Part shown: one piece after another, positions 50,631-63,132 of the stretch
Numbering within the stretch: the first letter of the stretch is position 1
Layout of the letters: each line of letters opens with the position of its first letter
Origin: Streptomyces phaeoluteigriseus
GTDB taxonomy: Bacteria; Actinomycetota; Actinomycetes; Streptomycetales; Streptomycetaceae
Length of the DNA stretch: 64,000 bases
Assembly: GCF_001896135.2 (NCBI RefSeq)
Contig: NZ_MPOH02000009.1
Coordinates: 1-64,000, forward strand
Reading direction: 5' to 3'
The notes under the pieces: generated by a model
Database searches by the model: none
Told to the model about the DNA's origin: nothing
The model's input: the letters and a program-made list of their open reading frames with translations, nothing else
Translations under genes and position numbers: made by a program

Positions 50631-51859
50631 ATGGCACAGCTGCGGCAAGAGGTCGACCCCGCCGAGGTCGGGCTGGACGGGAAGGCCCTGGACCGCCTCG
50701 ACCAGCATGTCGCCCACTACGTCGACGAGGGCAGGCTGCCCGGTTTCCTCGTGGCCGTCGCCCGCGGCGGCCGGATCGCGCACCTCACCACGCACGGCCA
50801 CCGCGACGTCGCCGCCGGCCTCCCCGTCGAGCCGGACACCCTGTGGCGGATCTACTCGATGACCAAGCCGGTCACCTCGGTCGCCGCGCTGATGCTGACG
50901 GAGGAGGGCCGGCTCTCCCTCGACGATCCGGTGGCCGCCCACCTTCCGGCCTTCGCCGACCCGCGGGTGTACGTCGGCGGCTCCGGCCAGGACATCGAGA
51001 CCCGGCCGGCCGGGCGGCCGCTGCTGGTGCGCGACCTGATGACCCACACCGCGGGCCTGACCTTCGCCTTCTACCACTGCCACCCCGTCGACGCCTTGTA
51101 CCGGGAGGCCGGGCTGGAGTCGGCGGTGCTGCCCGGTTCCGACCTGGCGACGACCGTCGAGGCGTACGCGCGTCTGCCGCTCCAGTTCGAGCCGGGCACG
51201 CAGTGGAACTACTCGGTGGCCACCAACGTCCTGGGCCGGATCATCGAGGTCGTCTCCGGCCGGCCCCTCGACGCGTTCCTCGCGGAACGCGTCTTCCGCC
51301 CGCTCGGGATGAGCGACGCCGGTTTCCAGGTCACGGGCGACCAGGCGGGCCGGCTGGCCGAGCTGTACGGCGGCACCGACGACGACGGGATCGAGCCGAT
51401 CCCCGGGCTGCCGCTGTTCGGGCGGCCCCGGTTCCTGTCGGGCAGCGGCGGTATGGTGGCGACCGCATACGACATACACCGCTTCATGGAGTTGTTGCGC
51501 CGCCGTGGCGAACTCGACGGGACACGGCTGCTGAAGCCCGAGACGGTGGATCTGATGACCCGCAACCATCTCCCGGGCGGCGCCGACCTGCGCGCGGTCG
51601 GCAGTCGGCCGCCCACGACGAACCCGGCAACGACGGGGTCGGCTTCGGCCTCGGCGTCTCCGTGGTGATCGACCCGGCCCGCGCCCAGGCCCCCTCCGGG
51701 CTCGGCACCTACGGCTGGAGCGGGGTGGCCACGACGACGTTCTGGGTCGACCCGAGTCGCGATCTCACCGTCCAGTTCCTCACCCAGCTACGGCCGAAGA
51801 GGTCGCTGAAGCTCTACCCCGACCTCAAGCGGCTGGTCCACGAAGCGGTCACGGACTGA
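50631..51859 (+). pseudogene. serine hydrolase (beta-lactamase/EstB class C type), frameshifted
   Basis: Repaired length about 409 residues. The catalytic SxxK is in YSMTKPVTS near residue 86, the Tyr motif in WNYSVATN near 200, and GSGGMVATAYDI is a further conserved segment. GGAGGA precedes ATG 50631. Near 51611 one base is missing ('cggccgcccacgac' for 'cggccggcccacgac'). The first frame ends early at 51668, while the second continues HDEPGNDGVGFGLGVSVVIDP, LGTYGWSGVATTTFWVDP to the proper end at 51859. There is no signal peptide, so an esterase-like role in the cytoplasm is more likely than antibiotic resistance. The end overlaps the convergent gene by 11 bp. Confidence 0.82.
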
Positions 51860-53018
51860 CCGGCGGGCCGTCGACGCGCAGGGTGAACGGAACGCCCTCC
51901 CGGGCGAGTTCGCCGAGCCACTCCCGCGACCGCTCCTCCGTCTCGGCGGCGCGGTTGAGTCCCGCCGGCAGGGAGCCGTCCAGAAGGTGCCGCACGCCGA
52001 GCGCGAGGGGCCGGGAGACACAACGCGCCATCGCGCTCTCCTCCGCGTCGCCCACCATGTCCAGCAGGCAACTCCCTGACCATGAGGTGCCGTTGCGGGC
52101 CCGAACCGCCAGGGACACGGCGAGGACGACCCGGTCGCGGTCGGTGTCCGTCATCGGGTGGGCCGCCGCCAACTCGCGGGCCAGGGAGGCGATCCGGGTG
52201 TCGTCGCCCGCCTTCAGCTCCTCGAACACCGGCTCCCAGGCTCGACGCCAGCCGCCCAGCCGCAGGGTGCCGCGCACGAAGGTCCGCGCCTGCCAGGCGG
52301 CGGGGAGCCCGTACTGCTCGACGAAGGGCACGCTGTCGCGGTTGGGGTAGACCTCGAAGACCTCCCCGTCGACGAGGTGCGCGCGGGTCGCCTCCCACGG
52401 CCGCCCGGCGGTCGTCTCGGTGCCGCCCTCCACGTAACGGGCGGGCGAGCGGAGGGCGTTGAGGACTCCTAGGGGCGCCCAGCTGAAGCGGTAGCGGAAG
52501 TCGTCGGCGACCGCCGGGATGCCGCCGCAGTACGAGGTGAAGTGGTACGACGCCGGTGTGCCGTCCCCGACCGCGGCGCGTGCGCGGGCCACCAGGGCGT
52601 GCGCGAAGAGGTGGTCGATGCCGGGGTCGAGCCCCGCCTCGGTGAGGACGACGACGCCGGCGTCGACGGCCGCGGGGACCTGCTCCAGCACCGCGTCCGA
52701 GACATAGCTGGAGCAGGCGAAGTGCGCCCGCTCCGCCACGCAGGCCGCGAGCAGCGGGGCGTGTTCGCCGGCGGGCAGCATCGACACCACGACGTCACCG
52801 GGGGCCAGTTCGGAGGTGAGCGCGCGCAGGGTGAAGGCGCGCGGTTCGGCGCGTCCGGTCAGGCCCAGCCGGCCGAGGGCGTCGGCGGCGCGTTCCTCGG
52901 TGCGGTGCCACAGCCGGACCCGGTCGGCGTGCTCGCAGAGGGCGGCCAGTCCGCTGCCCGTGGACAGGCCGGCGCCGACCCAGTGGACGGTGCCGCTCGC
53001 GGGGAGGCGGTCAGTCAC
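51849..53018 (-). CDS. saccharopine dehydrogenase-like NADP-binding protein
   Basis: A 389-residue protein of the saccharopine reductase (Lys9)-like family: Rossmann loop WVGAGLSTGSGLAAL at the start, VVVSMLPAGEHAPLLAAC, YVSDAVLEQVPAAVDAGVVVLTEAGLDPGIDHLFA, and TSYCGGIPAVADDFRYRFSWAPLGVL. These match the substrate-domain entry of enzymes acting on saccharopine or similar carboxyalkyl amino acids. GTG 53018 overlaps the stop of the next upstream gene. It forms an operon with a Lys1-like enzyme and an FAD oxidase. The exact opine substrate is uncertain. Confidence 0.78.
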   Translation of the reverse strand: MTDRLPASGTVHWVGAGLSTGSGLAALCEHADRVRLWHRTEERAADALGRLGLTGRAEPRAFTLRALTSELAPGDVVVSMLPAGEHAPLLAACVAERAHFACSSYVSDAVLEQVPAAVDAGVVVLTEAGLDPGIDHLFAHALVARARAAVGDGTPASYHFTSYCGGIPAVADDFRYRFSWAPLGVLNALRSPARYVEGGTETTAGRPWEATRAHLVDGEVFEVYPNRDSVPFVEQYGLPAAWQARTFVRGTLRLGGWRRAWEPVFEELKAGDDTRIASLARELAAAHPMTDTDRDRVVLAVSLAVRARNGTSWSGSCLLDMVGDAEESAMARCVSRPLALGVRHLLDGSLPAGLNRAAETEERSREWLGELAREGVPFTLRVDGPPVSP

Positions 53019-54071
53019 GGTGCCCGCTTTCCCCGTCGGGGCCGAGTCCGGCGCGGGCCCGCCGGAAGCGGGCCATGCATCGCGACCAGGCCGGGTTCAC
53101 GTCGTACTCCAGCAGGAGGGGCAGCAGGGCGCGGGAGAAGTCGGCGCTGGACTCGCGCGGCAGCAGGGAGGGCAGGTTGTCGATGGCGATCAGGTCGAGC
53201 GGGGGTTCCTTGCGCAGCCGCCGGGCGGGCTCGGTCCACTCGGTCGTCCGGTCGTAGACCGGAAGGACGTTGAGGGGGGAGCCGACGTCACAGGTGACGT
53301 CGCAGAGGGTGCGCAGCCGGCGGGCGGGGTCGTCGAGGTCCCGCTCGCGCAGGAACGGCGGGATCGGGCTGGTGGCGAGGACGGCGTTGACCATGACGTC
53401 GTGGCCGAGCAGGGCCGCACGGTCGAGGTCGCGGGTCTCCGCCAGGTCCCAGCAGGTCGGGTGGACGCCTGCCGTGCCGAACGCGGCCCGTGCGCCGCGC
53501 CCGCTGCGGCCCAGGGCGCGACGACGAGTGCGGTGAGGTCCTCGTCGCCGGGGAGCGGGCGCAGGGTTTCGTCCAGGGTGTCCTTGTCGGTGGGGCGCAG
53601 GGGTGCCGTGAGCCGGCCCCGGTGCTGGAGCACCGCGAGGGCCGCGCCCAGATAGCCGGCCCAGTACCCGAACGCGGCGAGTCGGCGGCCCTCGTCGTCG
53701 ACCAGGTACTCCAGGTCGAGGAGCGCCCCGCCCCCGGCGGCGAACCTGCGCAACAGGTGGGCGGCGCCCGGCTGTTCCTTGTAGGCGTGCCCGAAGTAGA
53801 CGTGGTGGTGCGTCAGTTCGACGGGCTCGTCGGGGAGTTCCTTCAGGCCGAGGACGACCGTGCCGGGCGGCGCCGACGTCCAGGAGCCCGCGGGCACGAC
53901 ACGGGCGCCGACCGCCTCGTACGCCGCGACCGGGAAGATGCGCTGCGGGGACTCCTCGACCGTCAGTCGCACACCGCTGTCCACGAGGCGGCGGGCGTCG
54001 TCGGGGACGAGCGGGGTGCGGCGTTCGGTGGAGCGGACCTCGTGGCGCAGCCACAGGTGGCGTTCCGTCAT
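53011..54071 (-). pseudogene. saccharopine dehydrogenase (Lys1/AlaDH-like), frameshifted
   Basis: The first half, from ATG 54071, reads LWLRHEVRSTERRTPLVPDDARRLVDSG, VVLGLKELPDEPVELTHHHVYFGHAYKEQPG and FGYWAGYLGAALAVLQHRG, the NAD-type saccharopine dehydrogenase signature. Near 53517 one G is missing ('gtcgcgccctggg' for 'gtcgcggccctggg'). The other frame then continues FGTAGVHPTCWDLAETRDLDRA, CDVTCDVGSPLNVLPVYDRTTEWTEP and DNLPSLLPRESSADFSRALLP. The repaired length is 353 residues. In fungi this enzyme interconverts saccharopine with lysine and 2-oxoglutarate. ATG overlaps the FAD oxidase stop. Confidence 0.8.
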
Positions 54072-55216
54072 ACGCGGTTGACCTCCGGACGCGGGGCGTC
54101 GGCGGCGAACCGGCCGGCGCCGAGGGGGCTGACGTCCACGAAGGGTACGCGGCCGAGGCAGAGGTCGCGGACGACCTCGCCGACGGCCGGTCCCTGGAGG
54201 AAGCCGTGCCCCGAGAAACCGGTCGCATACAGAAAGCGGGATACCGAAGGCGCCTCGCCGATCAGGGCGTTGTGGTCCGGGGTGACCTCGTACAGTCCCG
54301 CCCAGCCGCCCGCGCGGCGCAGGTCGAGGAGGGCGGGGGCGCGGCGTTCCATCGCGGCGACCAGGCGCGGGATCCATCGCTCGTGGGTGTCGGTGGCGAA
54401 GCCGGGCCGCTCGTCGGGGTCCGACATGCCGACCAGCAGGCCGGGACCCTCGGCGTGGAAGTAGAGGCTGCTGGTGAAGTCGATCGTCATCGGCAGGCCG
54501 GGCGGCAGACCGCCGGGGAACGGTTCGGTCACCGCTATCTGGCGGCGCAGCGGCCGTACCGGCAGATCCACGCCCACCAGGCCGGCGACGGACCGCGACC
54601 AGGCACCGGCCGCGCAGACCACGGTGTCGGTGGTGATGCGGCCGAGGGTGGTCGTCACGGCGGTGATCCTGCTGCCCCGCGTTTCGATACCGGTCACCTC
54701 GGTGTGGCGCAGGATGCGCGCGCCGCAGCGGCGGGCGGCGGCCGCGTATCCGTGGACGACGGCCTCGGGCGTGCAGTGACCGTCGTCGGGCGAGTACGCG
54801 GCGGCCCGTAATCCCTCGGTGGTGATCAGCGGGGAGAGCCGACGGGCCTCGGCCGGGTCGATCATGCGGCTGGGCACGCCCAGCGCGTTCTGGAGCCGGA
54901 CCCCCGCCTCGAAGGAGGCGACCTCCTCGGGCGTCGACAGCAGGAAGAGGTAGCCGACGCGGTGCAGTCCGATGTCGTAACCGATTTCCTCCCCGAACCG
55001 GGCGAACGCCTCCAGGCTGCGCGCGCCGAGCTGGATGTTCAGCTCGTCGGAGAACTGGGCGCGTACGCCGCCCGCGGCCTTCGAGGTCGAGCCCGCGCCG
55101 AGTTCGTCCCGCTCGACCAGCAGGACGTCCCGGACGCCGGCGGCGGCCAGATGGTAGGCGATGCTCGTCCCCATCACTCCGCCGCCGATCACGACGACCG
55201 AGGCTTGCGTGTTCAC
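54068..55216 (-). CDS. FAD-dependent amino-acid oxidase (DAO/sarcosine oxidase type)
   Basis: A 382-residue flavoprotein with the FAD-binding GGGVMGTSIAYHLAAAGVRDVLLVER at the N-terminus, STSKAAGGVRAQFSDELN after it, and FLYATGFSGHGFLQGPAVGEVVRDL near the end. These are typical of glycine, sarcosine, D-amino acid and N-alkylated amino acid oxidases. ATG 55216 starts it. It precedes two saccharopine-dehydrogenase-like genes with a 4-bp overlap, so the three may degrade or build one secondary amine such as saccharopine or a related opine; that is inference. Confidence 0.83.
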   Translation of the reverse strand: MNTQASVVVIGGGVMGTSIAYHLAAAGVRDVLLVERDELGAGSTSKAAGGVRAQFSDELNIQLGARSLEAFARFGEEIGYDIGLHRVGYLFLLSTPEEVASFEAGVRLQNALGVPSRMIDPAEARRLSPLITTEGLRAAAYSPDDGHCTPEAVVHGYAAAARRCGARILRHTEVTGIETRGSRITAVTTTLGRITTDTVVCAAGAWSRSVAGLVGVDLPVRPLRRQIAVTEPFPGGLPPGLPMTIDFTSSLYFHAEGPGLLVGMSDPDERPGFATDTHERWIPRLVAAMERRAPALLDLRRAGGWAGLYEVTPDHNALIGEAPSVSRFLYATGFSGHGFLQGPAVGEVVRDLCLGRVPFVDVSPLGAGRFAADAPRPEVNRV

Positions 55217-55564
55217 GCGGGCGGCTCCTTCCGGGCGGGCTGCCCGCGTCCCGCCGTCAGGCCGGGGCCACCGGGGCTGTCCGCTGTCGTGTGCCGTGGC
55301 TGTCGCGTGGCGTGACGGTGACCGTCGTGATCCTTACCCCGCACAGCGGCCCGCAGTACGCGACTTCAGGACAGTGCGCGCCTTCCGGGCGGTGCTCGAC
55401 CTCCGGGCAGCCCGCGGCTACCGGGCGGTGCTCGACCTCCGGGCAGCCCGCGGCTACCGGGCGGTGCTCGACCTCCGGGCAGCCCGCGACGTACGGGCGG
55501 TACGCCCCTTCCGGGCAGCCCGCGGCTTCCGGGCGGTGCGCCGTCGAAGGACCGGTGCCCGGCG
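55217..55564. other. 348-bp gap dominated by a 36-bp repeat array
   Basis: No gene. The gap between the FAD oxidase start and the cyclohydrolase end holds the array at 55387-55530 and degenerate flanking copies from about 55350. A promoter for the FAD oxidase operon should lie at 55220-55340 on the minus strand, but I see no convincing boxes. Confidence 0.6.
55387..55530. repeat. 36-bp tandem repeat, four copies plus partial ones
   Basis: Units begin at 55387, 55423, 55459 and 55495 with GGGCGGTGCTCGACCTCCGG as the first 20 bases. The first two are identical, the third differs at its end and the fourth at several bases. A degenerate copy precedes and a truncated copy follows. It ends 35 bp before the cyclohydrolase stop codon. 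Confidence 0.85.
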
Positions 55565-56224
55565 TCAGGACCAGTGCGCCACCGCGTCCAGGTGCGGCAG
55601 GCGGTGGTCGAGCCGCTCCCGCTTGGTGCGCAGATACGTGATGTTGTTCTCGCACGGCTCTATCAGCAGCGGCACCTCCTCGGCGACCTGGATGCCGTTC
55701 TCGACCAGCGCCTCCCGCTTGCGCGGGTTGTTCGACATCAGGCGGACGGAGCGCACGCCCATGTCGCGCAGCATGTCGGCGGCCACCTTGTAGTCCCGGG
55801 CGTCCACCGGGAAGCCCAGCGCGACGTTCGCCTCGACGGTGTCCAGGCCCTCCGCCTGGAGCGCCATCGCCCGCAGCTTGCCCAGCAGCCCGATGCCCCG
55901 GCCCTCGTGCCCGCGCAGGTAGACGACGATGCCCCGGCCCTCGGCGACGACGGCCCGCAGCGCGGACTCGAGCTGATCGCCGCACTCGCAGTGCTGGGAG
56001 CCGAACGCGTCACCGGTCAGGCATTCCGAATGCAACCGGGTCAGCACGTTCTCGGAACCCGGCTCGCCGTACACCAGGGCCACCTGCTCGTCGCCGCGGT
56101 CGTGGTCGAGGTAACCGATCGCCTGGAATTTGCCGTACACGGTGGGCAGCGGTGCATTCACCACGCGTTCCACACCGGTGCGCTGGGGGGACTTCTTGCC
56201 GAGCACGCCAAATTTGTCTGTCAT
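55565..56224 (-). CDS. ribA: GTP cyclohydrolase II paralogue, Met120 (FAPy-forming type)
   Basis: A 219-residue stand-alone RibA domain. The zinc Cys residues are C68, C79 and C81 (HSECLTGD, HCECG), and the GTP-binding and catalytic segments RGHEGRGIGLL and SNNPRKREAL are present. Canonical enzymes read KIRAYALQ; this one reads KLRAMALQ, placing Met at residue 120 by my count. From memory, the S. coelicolor paralogue SCO6655 carries the same Met120 and makes the formylated pyrimidine FAPy instead of the deformylated product, and restoring Tyr recovers normal activity. This is therefore probably not a riboflavin enzyme. ATG 56224 has AGGAA upstream and lies only 38 bp from the divergent creatininase-family gene. 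No ribB, ribH or ribE is nearby. Confidence 0.9.
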   Translation of the reverse strand: MTDKFGVLGKKSPQRTGVERVVNAPLPTVYGKFQAIGYLDHDRGDEQVALVYGEPGSENVLTRLHSECLTGDAFGSQHCECGDQLESALRAVVAEGRGIVVYLRGHEGRGIGLLGKLRAMALQAEGLDTVEANVALGFPVDARDYKVAADMLRDMGVRSVRLMSNNPRKREALVENGIQVAEEVPLLIEPCENNITYLRTKRERLDHRLPHLDAVAHWS

Positions 56225-56262
56225 GATCTGGTTCCTAAGCAGAGACGAAAGGCCGGGAAAAG

Positions 56263-57051
56263 ATGAGTGGTTCGGGAATGCGGACGGCGGCGTACGGAGG
56301 ACTGGTGCCGGCGGACACCACCGAGGACGTGCGGTCGCGCGGCGCGGACGTCCCGGTCCAGGTGGCGGTGCTGCCCGTCGGAAGCTTCGAACAGCACGGA
56401 CCGTACCTGCCGTTGGCGACCGACACGCTCGTCGCGTGTGCGATAGCGCGGGAGATCGCCGCCGTGCATCCGGTGCACCTCCTCCCTCCGGTGACCATCG
56501 CCTGCTCGCACGAGCACGCGGACTGGCCGGGAACCGTCAGCATCTCCGCCGTCACCCTTCACGCGGTGGTACAGGACATCGCGGCCTCACTGCGCCGCTC
56601 GGGCGTCGAGGCCCTGGTGCTGGTCAACGGACACGGCGGGAACTACGTCCTGGGCAACGCGGTCCAGGAGTCCTCCGCCCGCGGCGAGCGGATGGCCCTC
56701 TTCCCGGCCGCCGAGGACTGGGAGGCGGCACGGCAGCGGTCCGGGATGTCGACCTCTCTGCTCACCGACATGCACGCCGGGGAGATCGAGACCTCGATCC
56801 TGCTGCACGCCCATCCCGAACTCGTCCGGCCCGGTTACGAGTCGGCCGATTTCACCGCGGACGACCGTCGCCATCTACTCACGCTGGGAATGTCCGCCTA
56901 TACCGATTCGGGCGTCATCGGCCGTCCCTCCCTGGGGTCCGCGGAAAAGGGGAAGGAACTCCTGTCGAGCCTGGCGGATTCCTTCGGAACGTATTTCTCG
57001 ATCCTGACGACCGGGACGACCGAGGGGGATTCCGACGGCGCCGCCGTGTGA
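56263..57051 (+). CDS. creatininase-family amidohydrolase (ArfB-like FAPy deformylase candidate)
   Basis: A 262-residue metal-dependent amidohydrolase. The metal ligands are intact: Glu, His and Asp in GSFEQHGPYLPLATDT, His in NGHGGN, and Glu in TDMHAGEIETS. Known members are creatininase, MftE and the archaeal ArfB, which removes formate from FAPy in flavin and F420 synthesis. Being head to head with a FAPy-type cyclohydrolase makes the ArfB reaction the best guess. ATG 56263 is preferred; MRTAAYGG at 56278 is possible. The 3' 154 bp overlap the convergent flippase gene, covering the last 51 codons, which is unusually long. Confidence 0.82.
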   Translation: MSGSGMRTAAYGGLVPADTTEDVRSRGADVPVQVAVLPVGSFEQHGPYLPLATDTLVACAIAREIAAVHPVHLLPPVTIACSHEHADWPGTVSISAVTLHAVVQDIAASLRRSGVEALVLVNGHGGNYVLGNAVQESSARGERMALFPAAEDWEAARQRSGMSTSLLTDMHAGEIETSILLHAHPELVRPGYESADFTADDRRHLLTLGMSAYTDSGVIGRPSLGSAEKGKELLSSLADSFGTYFSILTTGTTEGDSDGAAV

Positions 57052-58297
57052 CGTCCGTCGCGGGGCTCCGCGTCCGGTACGACGCTGTCGGCCGCCGCGC
57101 TCCGGTTCCCGTCCCGCAGCCCGGTGTACCAGCGGGCGACCAGGACGACGAGGCCGGGCAGCGCGGCCGCGAAGCTGAGCACCCCGTACACGACGGCGAC
57201 CGCGAGTCCGGTGCTCGCGCCGAGTCCGGCCGCGCCGAACGCCCAGGCGGTGACGCCCTCGCGAGGCCCCCAGCCGCCGACGTTCAGCGGCACGCCCATC
57301 GCGAGCAGGGCGAGGACCCCCAGCGGCAGCAGCGTGAGGACCGGGGCGGCGGAGCCGGCCGCGCGGGCGGCGACCACGAACGTGGCGAGATGCCCGGCCA
57401 GCACGACCGCCGACGACAGGGCGACGCCGGGCGCGTTGCGCCGGGACAACAGCCCCGCGCGCCCCTCGGCGTACGCCGCCCGCATCCGTCCGCCCCGGCG
57501 GGAGGCCGAGGAGTTCGTCCGCAGGGCGCGGACGACGATCAGCACGCCGAGCCCGCCGACCGCGGCGAGGCCGGCCAGCGGCACGAAGTGCCGTACGTCG
57601 GCCATGACCGGGGACGGCAGCGTCAGCAGGATCGTCACTCCTGCGACGGCCAGGACGAGTTGGCCCGCCGTGCGCTCCAGGACGACGGCCCGCACGCCGC
57701 GTCCGACGTCGCCGGTGCTCTGCCCGTGGCGCACCGCGCGGTGGACGTCGCCGAGGATGCCGCCGGGCAGGGCCGCGTTCAGGAACAGCGAGCGGTAGTA
57801 GTCGGCGACGGCGGGCCCGAGGGGCAGCCGGATGTTCAGTCCGCGGGCCACCAGCGCCCATCGCCACGCGCTGAACACGGTGGTGACGGCCCCGATCCCG
57901 AGCCCGAGCAGCAGGGTGGGGGCGTCGATCCGCCGCAGCCCGTCCAGGACGGCGCCGGTGCCCATCCGCCACAGCAGGACGCCGAGGATGACGACGCCGG
58001 CGAGGGTGCCGAGGTGGGTGCGCAGCGCCGCGAACCGGGAACGGGCGGCCGGCCGCGGGGCCCGCGGCTCGGTCACGATCACGCCGGTACGGGCCTCGGA
58101 GACGGCGGGGCCGGTACGCGCCGGGAACGTCACGGCCGCCGTACGCGCCGGGAGCGCCTTGGCCGCCGTACGGGGAACGGTCACGACCGTTCCCGTCCGG
58201 GTCGCGCCGTCGCGCGGGGCCGTCGTACGGCCGTCCGCGCGCGCCGCGCCGACAGCGGCGCCGCCGGGACGCGCGCGCCCACCGTCTCCGCGCTCAT
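56898..58297 (-). CDS. flippase-like membrane protein (LPG-synthase TM / UPF0104)
   Basis: A membrane protein of about eight helices beginning at LAGVVILGVLLWRMG and ending at LVVLVARWYTGL. Family motifs include FSAWRWALVARGLNI, YYRSLFLNAALPGGILGDVHRA and VPLNVGGWGPREGVTAWAF. It matches the flippase half of MprF but lacks the lysyl-transferase domain, as in proteins that move lipid-linked molecules across the membrane. ATG 58297 overlaps the methyltransferase stop (ATGA) and opens MSAETVGARVPAAPLSA, but the domain is one frame over, so one base is probably missing between 58200 and 58250. GTG 58184 is the in-frame fallback. The N-terminal 50 residues come from a 27-bp repeat. The C-terminal tail is antisense to the creatininase gene. 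Confidence 0.75.
58065..58199 (-). repeat. 27-bp coding repeat, five units
   Basis: Five successive nine-residue units, RTGTVVTVP, RTAAKALPA, RTAAVTFPA, RTGPAVSEA and RTGVIVTEP, form the cytoplasmic leader of the flippase-like protein. The DNA units share CGTACGGCGGCC or CGTACCGGC words. The period is a multiple of three, so the frame is kept. Confidence 0.75.
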
Positions 58298-59327
58298 CAG
58301 ACGCCGCCCGTGGGCCGGGGCAGGGCGAGGAGGTCGCTGTGGTGGACGGTGACGTGGAGTTCACCGGCGGCGCAGGCCGCGAGCCGGGCCGCGAGGTACG
58401 TCTCGGCGCGGGCGGCGAGGTCGGGGCGCTCCTCGACGGCGGCGCCGACCCAGCCGCGCAGCCACTGGGCGGTGAGTGCGGCCTCGTCGGGGCCGAGCCG
58501 CCAGGCGCTCGGGTGCACCTTGACGCTCGCGCCGTGGTCGGCGAACGCCTCGCAGGCCGCCGTGACCGAGTCGGGGCCGAGGAGGCCCCCGCGGCGTTGG
58601 TGGTCGTCGAAGGCGGCGGCGATCTCCTCGTCCATCGGGTCCTCGGCACTCAGTTCGACGCGCCCGGCGACGGAGAGGGTCAGCAGGGCGGGGCAGCCGG
58701 CGCCCGCGCAGGCCGCGGCGAGGGTGTCGATCTCCTCGCGGGTGAGGACGTCGAGCAGCGCCGACGCGGTCACCAGTGAGGCGCCGACCAGGGCGTCCGG
58801 GGTCAGCCGGGCGACGTCGCCGCGGCGGGTCTCGACGGTGACCCGGCTGCCGTCCGCGGCGACCCGCGGCGAGCCGACGGCCGCGAAGTGCAGCAGGTAG
58901 GGGTCGCGGTCGTGCAGGATCCAGTGCTGGGGGCCGTCGAGGCGGGGGGCGAGCCAGCGGCCCATCGAGCCGGTGCCGCAGCCCAGGTCGTGCACGACGA
59001 GTCCGCCGGTGCGGCCGGGCAGGTTGGCCAGCCGGATCCGCAGCGGGTCCAGCAGGTCGATCGCCCGTGCCCTGGCGTCGGCGGGCTCGCGCAGCCGCAG
59101 CCACTCGGGGGCGTAGCGGGGCGGTTCCTGCGCCGCGCCGTCCTCGTCCCGCAGCCGTACGGTCGGCCGCTCGCCGGGGCGGGTCACCGGGCCCGCGCCC
59201 TCGATGACACCTGACATGACACCGGTCGCCTGCGTCTCCATGTCCGAGGACACCTCCCGAGCTCCGGGCTGCGCCGGAATCCGTCCGATCTGCCGTGCCA
59301 GGTCGGCCGGGGTCACCGTGGTCTTCC

Positions 59328-59331
<4 letters not shown>
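58297..59331 (-). CDS. SAM-dependent methyltransferase
   Basis: A 344-residue class I methyltransferase. The SAM loop is VVHDLGCGTGSMGRWLAPRL near residue 120, followed by HWILHDRDPYLLHF (acidic end of strand 2) and VTASALLDVLTREEI. The N-terminal 100 residues are poorly conserved and partly disordered. ATG 59331 overlaps the glycosyltransferase stop by 4 bp and the end overlaps the flippase ATG, so the set is translationally coupled. The acceptor is unknown; a sugar or heterocycle made by its neighbours is likely. Confidence 0.8.
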
Positions 59332-61018
<1,687 letters not shown>

Positions 61019-61023
61019 TCAGG

Positions 61024-62004
61024 TCAGGCGCTTTTGTCGTAGCGCACCCGGTGACACAGGGCCGCGATCGCCCCGCTCGTGAGCCGGGGCATCACCTCCG
61101 GCAACTCGTCGAAGGCGCTCTCCCCGGTGACGAGGGCGTCGAGCGCGGGGTCGGCGAGGAGGTCCAGGGCGAGGGCGAGCCGGTCGGCGTAGCTGCGGTT
61201 CGCTCGGCGCGGGGAGACGGTGCCGACCTGACTGCTGCGGATGACCAGTCGTCGGGAGTGGAAGGCCTCGCCGAGCGGCAGGGTGACCTTGCGGTCGCCG
61301 TACCAGCTCAGTTCGAGGACCGTGCCCTCGGCGGTCAGCAGTTCCAGGGAGCGGGCGAGGCCCTGCTCGGTGGCGCTGGCGTGCACGACGAGGTCGCAGC
61401 CGCCCAGTGCCTCCTCCGGGGAGGCGAAGCCGACGCCGAGCGCCTCGGCGGTCTTCGCCCGCGCCGGATCGGCGTCCACCAACTGCACGCGCACGCCCGG
61501 GAAGCGGCTCAGCAGCGCGGCCACCGAGCAGCCGACCATTCCGCCGCCGACCACCGCGATCCGGTCGCCCACCAGCGGTGCCGCGTCCCACAGCGCGTTC
61601 ACGGCCGTCTCGACCGTGCCGGCGAGGACGGCCCGCCCCGCGGGCACGGAGTCCGGTACGACGGTGACGGCGCTCGCCGGGACGACGAAACGGGTCTGGT
61701 GCGGAAACAGGGAGAAGACGGTACGCCCGACCAGTTCCTCGGGCCCCTCCTCCACCACCCCGACGTTGAGGTAGCCGTATTTCACGGGCGCCGGGAAGTC
61801 GCCCTCCTGGAACGGCGCCCGCATCACGGCGTGCTGACTCTCCGGGACCCCGCCGCGGAAGACGAGGGTCTCCGTGCCACGGCTGACCCCCGAATACAGC
61901 GAGCGGACGACGACCTCGCCCTCCGCCGGGTCCGGCAGGGTCACGTCACGGATCTCTCCATGGCCCGGCGAACCGATCCAGAACGCACGTGCGGTGCGGT
62001 TCAT
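61024..62004 (-). CDS. MDR-family dehydrogenase without zinc ligands
   Basis: A 326-residue medium-chain dehydrogenase. The N-domain has SLYSGVSRGTETLVFRGGVP where zinc alcohol dehydrogenases have a Cys-G-x-D/E ligand, and the four-Cys structural loop is absent. The nucleotide domain has IAVVGGGMVGCSVAALLSRFPGVRVQLVDADPARA. The SGVSRGTE form is seen in dehydrogenases of chlorophyll-like and sugar-like pathways. ATG 62004 has AGGAGG at 7-bp spacing. It lies 116 bp upstream of the PTPS-like gene on the same strand and is divergent from the phosphatidyltransferase. It may reduce or oxidise the heterocyclic or sugar intermediate; the substrate is unknown. Confidence 0.8.
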   Translation of the reverse strand: MNRTARAFWIGSPGHGEIRDVTLPDPAEGEVVVRSLYSGVSRGTETLVFRGGVPESQHAVMRAPFQEGDFPAPVKYGYLNVGVVEEGPEELVGRTVFSLFPHQTRFVVPASAVTVVPDSVPAGRAVLAGTVETAVNALWDAAPLVGDRIAVVGGGMVGCSVAALLSRFPGVRVQLVDADPARAKTAEALGVGFASPEEALGGCDLVVHASATEQGLARSLELLTAEGTVLELSWYGDRKVTLPLGEAFHSRRLVIRSSQVGTVSPRRANRSYADRLALALDLLADPALDALVTGESAFDELPEVMPRLTSGAIAALCHRVRYDKSA

Positions 62005-62111
62005 CGGCGTCCTCCTGAACGTTCGGGAACTTGCTCACGTACCGAGGTGTGCACAGGTCGCGCACAGTACGCGGCCTTGATCGACTCTGTCACCTGGCCG
62101 GAGGATGTGCG

Positions 62112-62957
62112 GTGGCCCTGAACAACACTTACGACGCAAGGCTGGTCCAGCAGGAGACCGCTGTGGGAGCGGGCGTACAGATCCTGGTACTGGCCCTGCT
62201 CGGCACGGCGATCGGCATGGGCCCGGCAGGCTGGGTGACCGGCCTCGTCTTCGCCGTCGCCACCTGGGCGGTGCTCTCACGGGCACTGCACCGCTCGGGT
62301 CTGCGCACGTTCGGCCCGGCGAACCGGGTCACCCTCGGCCGGGCCACCCTGGTCGGCGGGGTGACGGCACTGGTCGCGGACTCCTTCGTGAGCGCGCCCC
62401 CGGTGTCCCTGCTGGTCGGCCTGACGGCCGTGGCCCTGCTGCTGGACGGCGTGGACGGCAAGGTGGCCCGACGCACGGGCACCTCCACGGCACTGGGCGC
62501 ACGCTTCGACATGGAGGTCGACGCGTTCCTGATCCTCGTCCTCAGCGTGTACGTCTCCATGGCGCTGGGTCCCTGGGTCCTGCTGATCGGCGCGATGCGC
62601 TACGCCTTCGTCGCGGCGGCCCGCCTGGCCCCGTGGCTCAACGCCGCGCTCCCGCCGAGCACGGCCCGCAAGACGGTCGCCGCGATGCAGGGCGTCTGCC
62701 TCCTCGTCGCCGGCGCCGACCTGCTCCCGCACGCCGGCAACCTCGCGGTGGCCCTGCTGGCCCTGGCCCTGCTGCTGTGGTCCTTCGGCCGCGATGTGCT
62801 GTGGCTGTGGCGGGAGTCGCGGGCGAACCGGGGAAGCGGAAGCGAGAACGCGGGCGCGGGACCGGCACGAGCGGAGAAGAGGCTGGCCCTGGAACTCGAA
62901 CTGGAGCTGGAGCTGGAAACTGGAACTGGCGGGGCGCTGAGCCTGGCTGGGCGCTGA
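62112..62957 (+). CDS. CDP-alcohol phosphatidyltransferase
   Basis: A 281-residue integral membrane enzyme with about six helices. The active-site motif D-G-x2-(D)-G-x2-A-R-x8-G-x3-D-x3-D is visible as LDGVDGKVARRTGTSTALGARFDMEVD. It joins an alcohol headgroup to a CDP-activated lipid or polyol. GTG 62112 follows GGAGGA. The first 20 residues and the last 40 are outside the family. The tail LALELELELELETGTGG comes from CTGGAG repeats and the stop lies inside a 17-bp array, so the original 3' end was probably overwritten. It is divergent from the dehydrogenase by 107 bp. Confidence 0.85.
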   Translation: MALNNTYDARLVQQETAVGAGVQILVLALLGTAIGMGPAGWVTGLVFAVATWAVLSRALHRSGLRTFGPANRVTLGRATLVGGVTALVADSFVSAPPVSLLVGLTAVALLLDGVDGKVARRTGTSTALGARFDMEVDAFLILVLSVYVSMALGPWVLLIGAMRYAFVAAARLAPWLNAALPPSTARKTVAAMQGVCLLVAGADLLPHAGNLAVALLALALLLWSFGRDVLWLWRESRANRGSGSENAGAGPARAEKRLALELELELELETGTGGALSLAGR

Positions 62958-63018
62958 GCCTGGCTGGGCGCTGAGCCTGGCTGGGCGCTGAGCCTGGCTG
63001 GGCGCTGAGCCTGGCCGG
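62934..63018. repeat. 17-bp tandem repeat, five copies over the 3' end
   Basis: Copies of GCGCTGAGCCTGGCTGG start at 62934, 62951, 62968, 62985 and 63002, the last with one change. The phosphatidyltransferase stop codon lies in the second copy. Because 17 is not a multiple of three, each copy shifts frame and supplies a TGA. Confidence 0.9.
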
Positions 63019-63132
63019 AGGCTCGTCCTGGCTGGGCGTTGCATCTGGCACACGACGTCGAGGGGCCCGGTCCGCTGAACGGATCCGGGCCCTCGTCGCC
63101 TGCGGGGGGGCTTTGCGCAACCGGTTCCGGGC

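Follow-up and report, generated by a model that had tools for sequence, protein, structure and literature searches.

The window, a 64,000 nt stretch of Streptomyces phaeoluteigriseus DNA (assembly GCF_001896135.2, contig NZ_MPOH02000009.1, positions 1 to 64,000, forward strand), contains all eight genes of the cluster proposed in the initial annotation, at 55565..62957. Six of the encoded proteins score above their Pfam cut-offs. These are a RibA-type GTP cyclohydrolase II whose active-site Tyr is replaced by Met120 (55565..56224, minus strand; PF00925, 217.9 bits), a creatininase-family hydrolase and predicted FAPy deformylase (56263..57051, plus strand; PF02633, 214.4 bits), an LPG-synthase-TM/flippase-like membrane protein (56898..58184, minus strand; PF03706, 107.5 bits against a cut-off of 33.4), a GT4 glycosyltransferase (59328..60512, minus strand; PF00534, 97.8 bits), a PTPS-fold protein without the catalytic Cys (60509..60949, minus strand; PF01242, 83.1 bits against 22.4) and a CDP-alcohol phosphatidyltransferase (62031..62957, plus strand; PF01066, 47.9 bits). 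The SAM-dependent methyltransferase (58297..59331, minus strand; Methyltransf_25, 25.2 bits, cut-off 27) and the zinc-less MDR dehydrogenase (61024..62004, minus strand; ADH_zinc_N, 21.5 bits against 31.8) score under theirs.

The creatininase and CDP-alcohol genes lie on the opposite strand to the other six. The RibA and creatininase genes are divergent, with 38 bp between them, and the 3' ends of the creatininase and flippase genes overlap by 154 bp. The MDR and CDP-alcohol genes are also divergent, with a gap of 26 bp if the latter starts at TTG 62031, or of 107 bp if the later GTG 62112 is the start. The flippase start is likewise uncertain (GTG 58184 or GTG 58364), and the true PTPS start may lie about 14 codons later, since most of the PTPS relatives listed are 132 aa long. 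Overlaps of 4 bp, previously described as the prevailing arrangement, occur at two junctions only (PTPS/GT4 and GT4/methyltransferase), and 74 bp separate the PTPS and MDR genes. An Rfam search and a tRNA search found none.

The family assignments made in the initial annotation stand for all eight proteins. Residue 120 of the RibA is Met, the PTPS homologue has Ala in the position of the catalytic Cys, and in the MDR protein Ser replaces the Cys of zinc MDRs, a position located by reading. The methyltransferase falls short of its Pfam cut-off, yet its SAM motif (DLGCGTG) is kept in relatives, and a fold search with its structure model returns SAM methyltransferases as generic matches. The MDR protein also has a nucleotide motif that is kept in relatives; it matches BchC weakly (50.7 bits against an equivalog cut-off of 291.25), and its model is nearest to alcohol, threonine, idonate, sorbitol and xylitol dehydrogenases. 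Both models come from shallow alignments (pLDDT 69 and 78). As Asp177 follows strand two of its nucleotide fold, the dehydrogenase is probably NAD-type. The GT4 motif E-x7-E is well preserved, with E292 in 137 of 138 rows and E300 in 135, and the CDP-alcohol phosphatidyltransferase motif, D-x2-D-G-x2-A-R-x8-G-x3-D-x3-D, is complete in the window and in 109/109 rows. For the flippase-like protein, TIGR00374 remains below its cut-off (27.1 of 43.2).

Of 80 Streptomyces loci, 76 hold all eight genes in one and the same order; among the four exceptions, three run out where the contig stops and the last is a stray copy of PTPS. A further 58 distant loci were picked by their PTPS protein. These draw on every one of the 42 matches that the class holds beyond crown Streptomyces and on 62 phylum hits, for which 18 of the 54 outside the class were fetched at length, the other 36 being mostly weaker; L132 and L133, one family in which PTPS occurs with RibA and RibD and with neither MDR nor GT4, are left out of the counts. 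The PTPS gene is adjoined by GT4 in 58/58 distant loci and by the dehydrogenase in 54, and the remaining genes recur in varied orders. GT4 is present in all 58 and MDR in 56, the two others being cut by contig ends, followed by the flippase (35), the CDP-alcohol enzyme (34) and the Streptomyces-type methyltransferase (32). Within the fetched stretches, RibA is found in 32 loci and creatininase in 16.

In three loci (L115, L194 and L196), MDR-PTPS-GT4 is all that is seen. The CDP-alcohol enzyme and flippase are missing from the 15 Rubrobacter-type loci, only one of which has RibA; a FolB (dihydroneopterin aldolase) gene lies beside all 15 of these clusters and an acyltransferase gene beside 14. 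Among 30 short loci, 27 have MDR or GT4 beside PTPS, and L104, L106 and L113 have neither. Of the 40 loci checked, at most 7 were found to share any one additional family. Fusions of GT4 with the methyltransferase (six loci) and of RibA with RibD_C (two loci) were detected; open-frame lengths had also raised the suspicion of an MDR-PTPS fusion, but none turned up, and a link between the CDP-alcohol and MDR genes in the neighbor survey was judged an antisense ORF artefact.

The distribution is patchy: of 394 genomes of the class, 57 have a PTPS match. Chance clustering can be excluded, because a given gene is expected to have a RibA no more than 10 kb away in about 0.7% of cases, and 32 of the 58 distant loci have one; the completeness of the Streptomyces loci points the same way. 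The refuting outcome named in the initial annotation, genes that seldom occur together, was not borne out: the eight genes are one conserved unit across Actinomycetota. The window PTPS protein is an orthologue of SCO6650 of Streptomyces coelicolor (PDB 3d7j, deposited as uncharacterized; 135 residues aligned, E 6.5e-80). SCO6655, annotated as GTP cyclohydrolase II, is five tags from SCO6650, matching the place of RibA in the conserved order, and from the 3d7j match and the locus tags this looks like the same locus as that in the window.

The set has a ninth member family that is absent from the window, a RibD_C reductase that stands alone. It is present in 37 of the 58 distant loci and in 0/80 crown Streptomyces loci. 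A search of 18 genomes detected a close copy in four early Streptomyces only, with matches at 30-36% in 13 others and none in one; relocation within crown Streptomyces genomes is ruled out by the lack of a close copy elsewhere in the 14 tested. Ribosyl reduction in crown Streptomyces would therefore be carried out by another enzyme, or there is no such step. Of the 26 distant loci with no RibA in the fetched stretch, eight are also without RibD_C and creatininase, and would have to use general enzymes.

The clearest pattern concerns residue 120 of RibA. The zinc-binding Cys68, Cys79 and Cys81 and Arg143 are invariant in 35/35 RibA rows. The active-site Tyr is present in 22/22 non-cluster rows (the other three of the 25-row set being cluster RibAs) and in both other RibAs of the window genome, and it is Met in the window and in all 76 RibA-bearing Streptomyces loci, each of which has a creatininase. 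This Tyr is reportedly needed for formate release by GTP cyclohydrolase II, and SCO6655 is said to make FAPy through Met120, both from work by Spoonamore in 2006. In the distant loci, a non-Tyr cluster RibA (Met, Leu, His or Gln) is accompanied by a creatininase in 17 of 17 cases. Sixteen of these have it in the locus, and for L176, which had looked like an exception, a genome search located it about 13 kb away (64% identity). Tyr-type cluster RibAs have a creatininase in 0 of 15 loci, and all 14 of their genomes that were searched lack a close creatininase, with a best match of 42%.

Creatininase is thus present only with a non-Tyr RibA among the cluster loci that hold a RibA. The resulting table (17:0 against 0:15) gives a Fisher p of 1.8e-9, which is not a count of independent events, since the link is most simply explained by one origin and two joint losses. 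RibA and creatininase are both missing in three loci on two branches; in these genomes one further RibA remains, and a close creatininase is absent. Three of the 32 genomes searched fall outside the completeness filter, and the absence of creatininase is weaker where genomes are incomplete. The cluster RibAs sit on several tree branches, which suggests that RibA has been recruited repeatedly to this locus.

The association is consistent with a RibA that leaves the formyl group in place and a deformylase that acts separately, and it lends comparative support to the route from GTP to FAPy and on to deformylation that the initial annotation had put forward. What we take to be the metal-ligand positions of the creatininase family are preserved: one of the 93 rows departs at each of E43, H45 and D54, and none at H124, H171 or E174. 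Equivalog scores are all below cut-off (ArfB 38.6 of 180, MftE 137.9 of 172, creatininase 94.9 of 235), which rules out MftE and ArfB, and the protein is predicted to deformylate FAPy. BrbF of Sinorhizobium and Brucella (PMC9478397) is likewise a creatininase-family protein, shown biochemically to deformylate the GTP cyclohydrolase intermediate FAPy; the likeness is one of family and predicted reaction. BrbF serves riboflavin, whereas the window pair stands with PTPS, MDR, GT4, methyltransferase, flippase and CDP-alcohol enzyme.

Sequence comparison shows the unit, RibD_C as its ninth family, the Tyr replacement that goes with creatininase, and a PTPS that has lost its catalytic Cys and kept its ring-binding Glu; remodelling, glycosylation, methylation, lipid attachment and flipping are suggested by family membership. 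RibA(Met120) would convert GTP to FAPy, and the creatininase would then yield 2,5-diamino-6-ribosylamino-4(3H)-pyrimidinone 5'-phosphate; these two steps are the firmest. The ribosyl group would be reduced to ribityl without deamination of the ring, by RibD_C where present and by a general reductase in the window species. Oxidation of a side-chain alcohol by the MDR enzyme with NAD, binding of the ring by a PTPS-fold hexamer that closes it to a dihydropterin, and attachment and export by the CDP-alcohol enzyme and flippase are guesses from fold and gene order; before export, GT4 would add a sugar and the methyltransferase a methyl group. We give even chances to the whole scheme, in which the unit makes a glycosylated, methylated pterin-like compound, maybe joined to a lipid and flipped.

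It is possible, if somewhat unlikely, that the end product is soluble and that the flippase-like and CDP-alcohol proteins have no part in a lipid conjugate, with a role in transport or membrane housekeeping instead, as their absence from the Rubrobacter-type loci and from L115, L194 and L196 would allow. However, both recur in more than half of the distant loci in varied orders, the CDP-alcohol signature is intact throughout, and an acyltransferase accompanies nearly all Rubrobacter-type clusters.

An unlikely reading is that the ring is never closed, the PTPS fold only binding or isomerizing, and that a nucleoside-like ribosyl- or ribityl-pyrimidine with sugar and methyl groups results. The upstream enzymes do act on open pyrimidines. 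The PTPS catalytic Cys is Ala in 85/85 readable rows, Tyr predominates in the column of the catalytic His, and of the three zinc His the third is replaced by Ala in the window and retained in the 15 Rubrobacter-type rows alone; lacking one of three zinc ligands, the window protein may bind rather than catalyse. Against this, the fold is that of pterin-ring proteins, the Glu that we take to bind pterin-like rings is kept in 87/87 rows, and FolB accompanies every Rubrobacter-type cluster. It is very improbable that the RibA-creatininase pair provides a reserve supply of riboflavin precursors, with the remaining genes forming an unrelated glycolipid operon. BrbF does act in riboflavin synthesis in Rhizobiales (PMC9478397), and a metabolic model files SCO6655 under riboflavin. 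Membership in riboflavin synthesis is nevertheless rejected, given the two further Tyr-type RibAs of the genome, the RibD deaminase domain that tblastn did not find in 57 of the 58 distant loci (with a weak hit in L115), the seemingly repeated recruitment of RibA and the persistence of MDR-PTPS-GT4.

The proposed pterin-like route shares FAPy, separate deformylation and reduction without deamination with the archaeal pathway of GTP cyclohydrolase III, ArfB and 2,5-diamino-pyrimidinone reductase. It differs in that the window RibA is of bacterial type II and the creatininase is below the ArfB cut-off. The two RibD_C proteins tested, from L126 and L114, reach 153 and 128 bits with the model of the archaeal reductase, under its cut-off of 186. 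With PTPS and QueD the window protein has the fold and ring-binding Glu in common, whereas the Cys, the His column and, outside the Rubrobacter-type loci, the third zinc His are changed. Sugar-bearing pteridine natural products exist in the cyanobacterial pterin glycosides. The pteridine-NRPS cluster of PMC5384830 likewise concerns a pteridine natural product, the likeness being one of product type. The literature searched assigns no product to this gene set, and its locus tags appear in one metabolic-model table and one expression table.

A bolder form of the proposal, which we consider decidedly unlikely, is that a pathway of Actinomycetota bypasses GTP cyclohydrolase I and ends in a methylated pterin glycoside linked to the membrane, a new class of envelope molecule that is perhaps switched on in sporulating mycelium. 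A formyl-retaining cyclohydrolase II with its own deformylase would begin this bypass, the reductase and NAD dehydrogenase would jointly mimic the Amadori step, and the PTPS-fold protein would be repurposed for ring closure.

The activity of SCO6655 and the structure of SCO6650, reportedly the subjects of papers in 2006 and 2008, are said to have stood without a pathway for years. Both now appear as members of a conserved nine-family unit that extends from Streptomyces to Rubrobacter-type genomes, for which a likely order of early steps can be given. The unit also yields a sharp prediction, that the RibA residue and the creatininase are mutually dependent, and this link may be of use in picking out the FAPy deformylases among creatininase-family proteins. 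The unit as a whole points to a pterin- or pyrimidine-derived molecule.

The eight genes that the initial annotation had placed in 55565..62957 of the window, encoding RibA, a creatininase, a flippase-like protein, a methyltransferase, GT4, a PTPS-fold protein, an MDR dehydrogenase and a CDP-alcohol phosphatidyltransferase, were confirmed there. Its residue-level readings also hold: RibA carries Met at residue 120, the active-site Tyr position, the PTPS homologue has Ala in place of the catalytic Cys, and the zinc-less MDR has Ser where zinc MDRs carry Cys, at a position that we assigned ourselves. The genes had been described as mostly overlapping by 4 bp, but such overlaps occur at two junctions only, PTPS/GT4 and GT4/methyltransferase; the latter is 4 bp in 55 Streptomyces loci (at most 79 compared, start sites chosen by script). 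RibA and creatininase are transcribed divergently across a 38-bp gap, and the CDP-alcohol gene and MDR are likewise divergent. The 3' ends of the convergent creatininase and flippase genes share 154 bp (56898-57051), at the site occupied by RibD_C, a stand-alone reductase domain, in early Streptomyces loci. Tandem repeats lie 3' of RibA (55356-55539; GC-rich, 36-bp period, about 4.5 copies) and where the CDP-alcohol gene ends (62926-63038; 17-bp period, 6.6 copies). After RibA, two saccharopine-dehydrogenase-like genes and an FAD oxidoreductase were assigned by eye at 51849-55216, with relatives in 42, 39 and 37 of the best 80 Streptomyces loci (of at least 566).

A scan of named genomes returned at least 566 stretches encoding a PTPS relative; among the best 80, which were retained, 76 contain all eight genes in unchanged order, in keeping with the proposed gene set, and three are incomplete at contig ends. 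Locus L062 holds a solitary PTPS copy, with the full cluster (L083) in the same genome; two ORFs in the 20-kb stretch around this second copy (L062:10001-10423) resemble transposases by eye.

Beyond Streptomyces, PTPS is encoded in Nocardiopsis, Amycolatopsis, Actinomadura and Pseudonocardia. It was matched in 62 of 296 phylum genomes (E 1e-5) and 57 of 394 class genomes (1e-10), and the gene set is therefore patchy. Sixty distant loci were selected by PTPS and 58 counted, L132 and L133 being left out because they contain no MDR or GT4. Within the stretches examined, GT4 is present in 58/58, MDR in 56, RibD_C in 37, the flippase in 35, the CDP-alcohol enzyme in 34, the Streptomyces-type methyltransferase in 32, RibA in 32 and creatininase in 16. 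Gene order differs among these loci, and PTPS is adjoined by GT4 in all 58 and by MDR in 54. GT4 and methyltransferase are fused in six loci and RibA and RibD_C in two; no additional family was found in more than 7 of 40 class loci by heuristic ORF calls. In the 15 Rubrobacter-type loci (f18, L117-L131), whose PTPS matches proteins named Rubrobacter in 4 of the 120 matches listed, RibD_C, MDR, PTPS and GT4 are each present in 15/15 and a methyltransferase in 13, the remaining two loci being cut. Their divergent neighbours are FolB, which may be the folate enzyme (15/15), and a PlsC-like acyltransferase (14/15), and RibA occurs in one.

The alignment keeps the PTPS Glu, which we take to bind pterin-like rings, in 87/87 rows, and has Ala in the catalytic Cys column in all 85 readable rows; the third zinc His is kept in f18 only. 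The creatininase, GT4 and CDP-alcohol motifs of the window are intact. The MDR model (pLDDT 78) is nearest to alcohol, threonine, idonate, sorbitol and xylitol dehydrogenases, and Asp177 suggests NAD as cofactor, while the methyltransferase model (pLDDT 69) resembles SAM methyltransferases, with nothing narrower.

RibD_C accompanies creatininase and RibA in the four early Streptomyces loci (L158-L161). It was found neither in the window nor, with an f18 query, in any of the 80 crown Streptomyces loci (best 80 of at least 566), and a search of 14 such genomes gave no close copy outside the locus. Save for a weak match in L115, no deaminase domain was found beside cluster RibD_C. Two tested cluster proteins are similar to archaeal 2,5-diamino-pyrimidinone reductase, although below the cut-off of its model. 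At a distance from the PTPS cluster, another RibA lies near two further RibD_C genes (G008:C16:70917-74483, L236), perhaps as part of another pathway.

Creatininase follows the RibA residue at the Met120 column. Tyr is found in 15 of the 32 distant RibA loci, with RibD_C in 15/15 and creatininase in 0/15; the other 17 have Met (6), Leu (6), His (4) or Gln (1), with creatininase in the stretch in 16 and about 13 kb off (64% identity) in the last. Of the remaining 26 loci, without RibA in the stretch, eight also lack RibD_C and creatininase. When 32 genomes were searched whole (E 1e-15), a close creatininase (64-68%) was found in three, all non-Tyr, relatives at only 31-42% in ten and none in 19; the 14 Tyr-cluster genomes among them yielded no close copy. 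In a midpoint-rooted tree, non-Tyr RibAs form a single clade (support 1.0) adjoining long-frame RibAs, taken to be housekeeping enzymes, and Tyr cluster RibAs lie on at least three other branches, which suggests that RibA was recruited repeatedly. Creatininase holders group together in the MDR, PTPS and GT4 tree, most simply with a single origin of creatininase in the cluster; L162 and L174 have lost both RibA and creatininase, as has, separately, L186, and the genomes of all three have one RibA match apiece and yielded no close creatininase. The association should therefore be counted as a single gain with two losses of both genes, and its 32 points are not independent.

The window PTPS matches PDB 3d7j, SCO6650 of Streptomyces coelicolor, deposited as uncharacterized. 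By counting, the conserved order PTPS, GT4, methyltransferase, flippase, creatininase, RibA would correspond to SCO6650 to SCO6655, and SCO6652 should therefore be the methyltransferase. Excerpts of PMC2853524 annotate SCO6655 as GTP cyclohydrolase II, and those of PMC3610822 place SCO6652 among conserved genes of unknown function that are more highly expressed in the second mycelium than in the first (16 h), with log2 rises of 0.8 (24 h), 4.3 (48 h) and 4.1 (72 h).

A literature search, with most subscription papers outside its reach, found no product for the gene set. According to excerpts of PMC9478397, the creatininase-type formamidase BrbF, tested in Rhizobiales, removes formate from the cyclohydrolase intermediate. 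In the present locus, such a RibA and creatininase pair would feed the conserved gene set and not riboflavin. After deformylation, the ribosyl chain may be reduced or used, MDR would carry out an NAD oxidation, and the PTPS-fold protein would bind, and perhaps close, the ring. Glycosylation and methylation would follow, and in Actinomycetia the product may be attached to a lipid and flipped.
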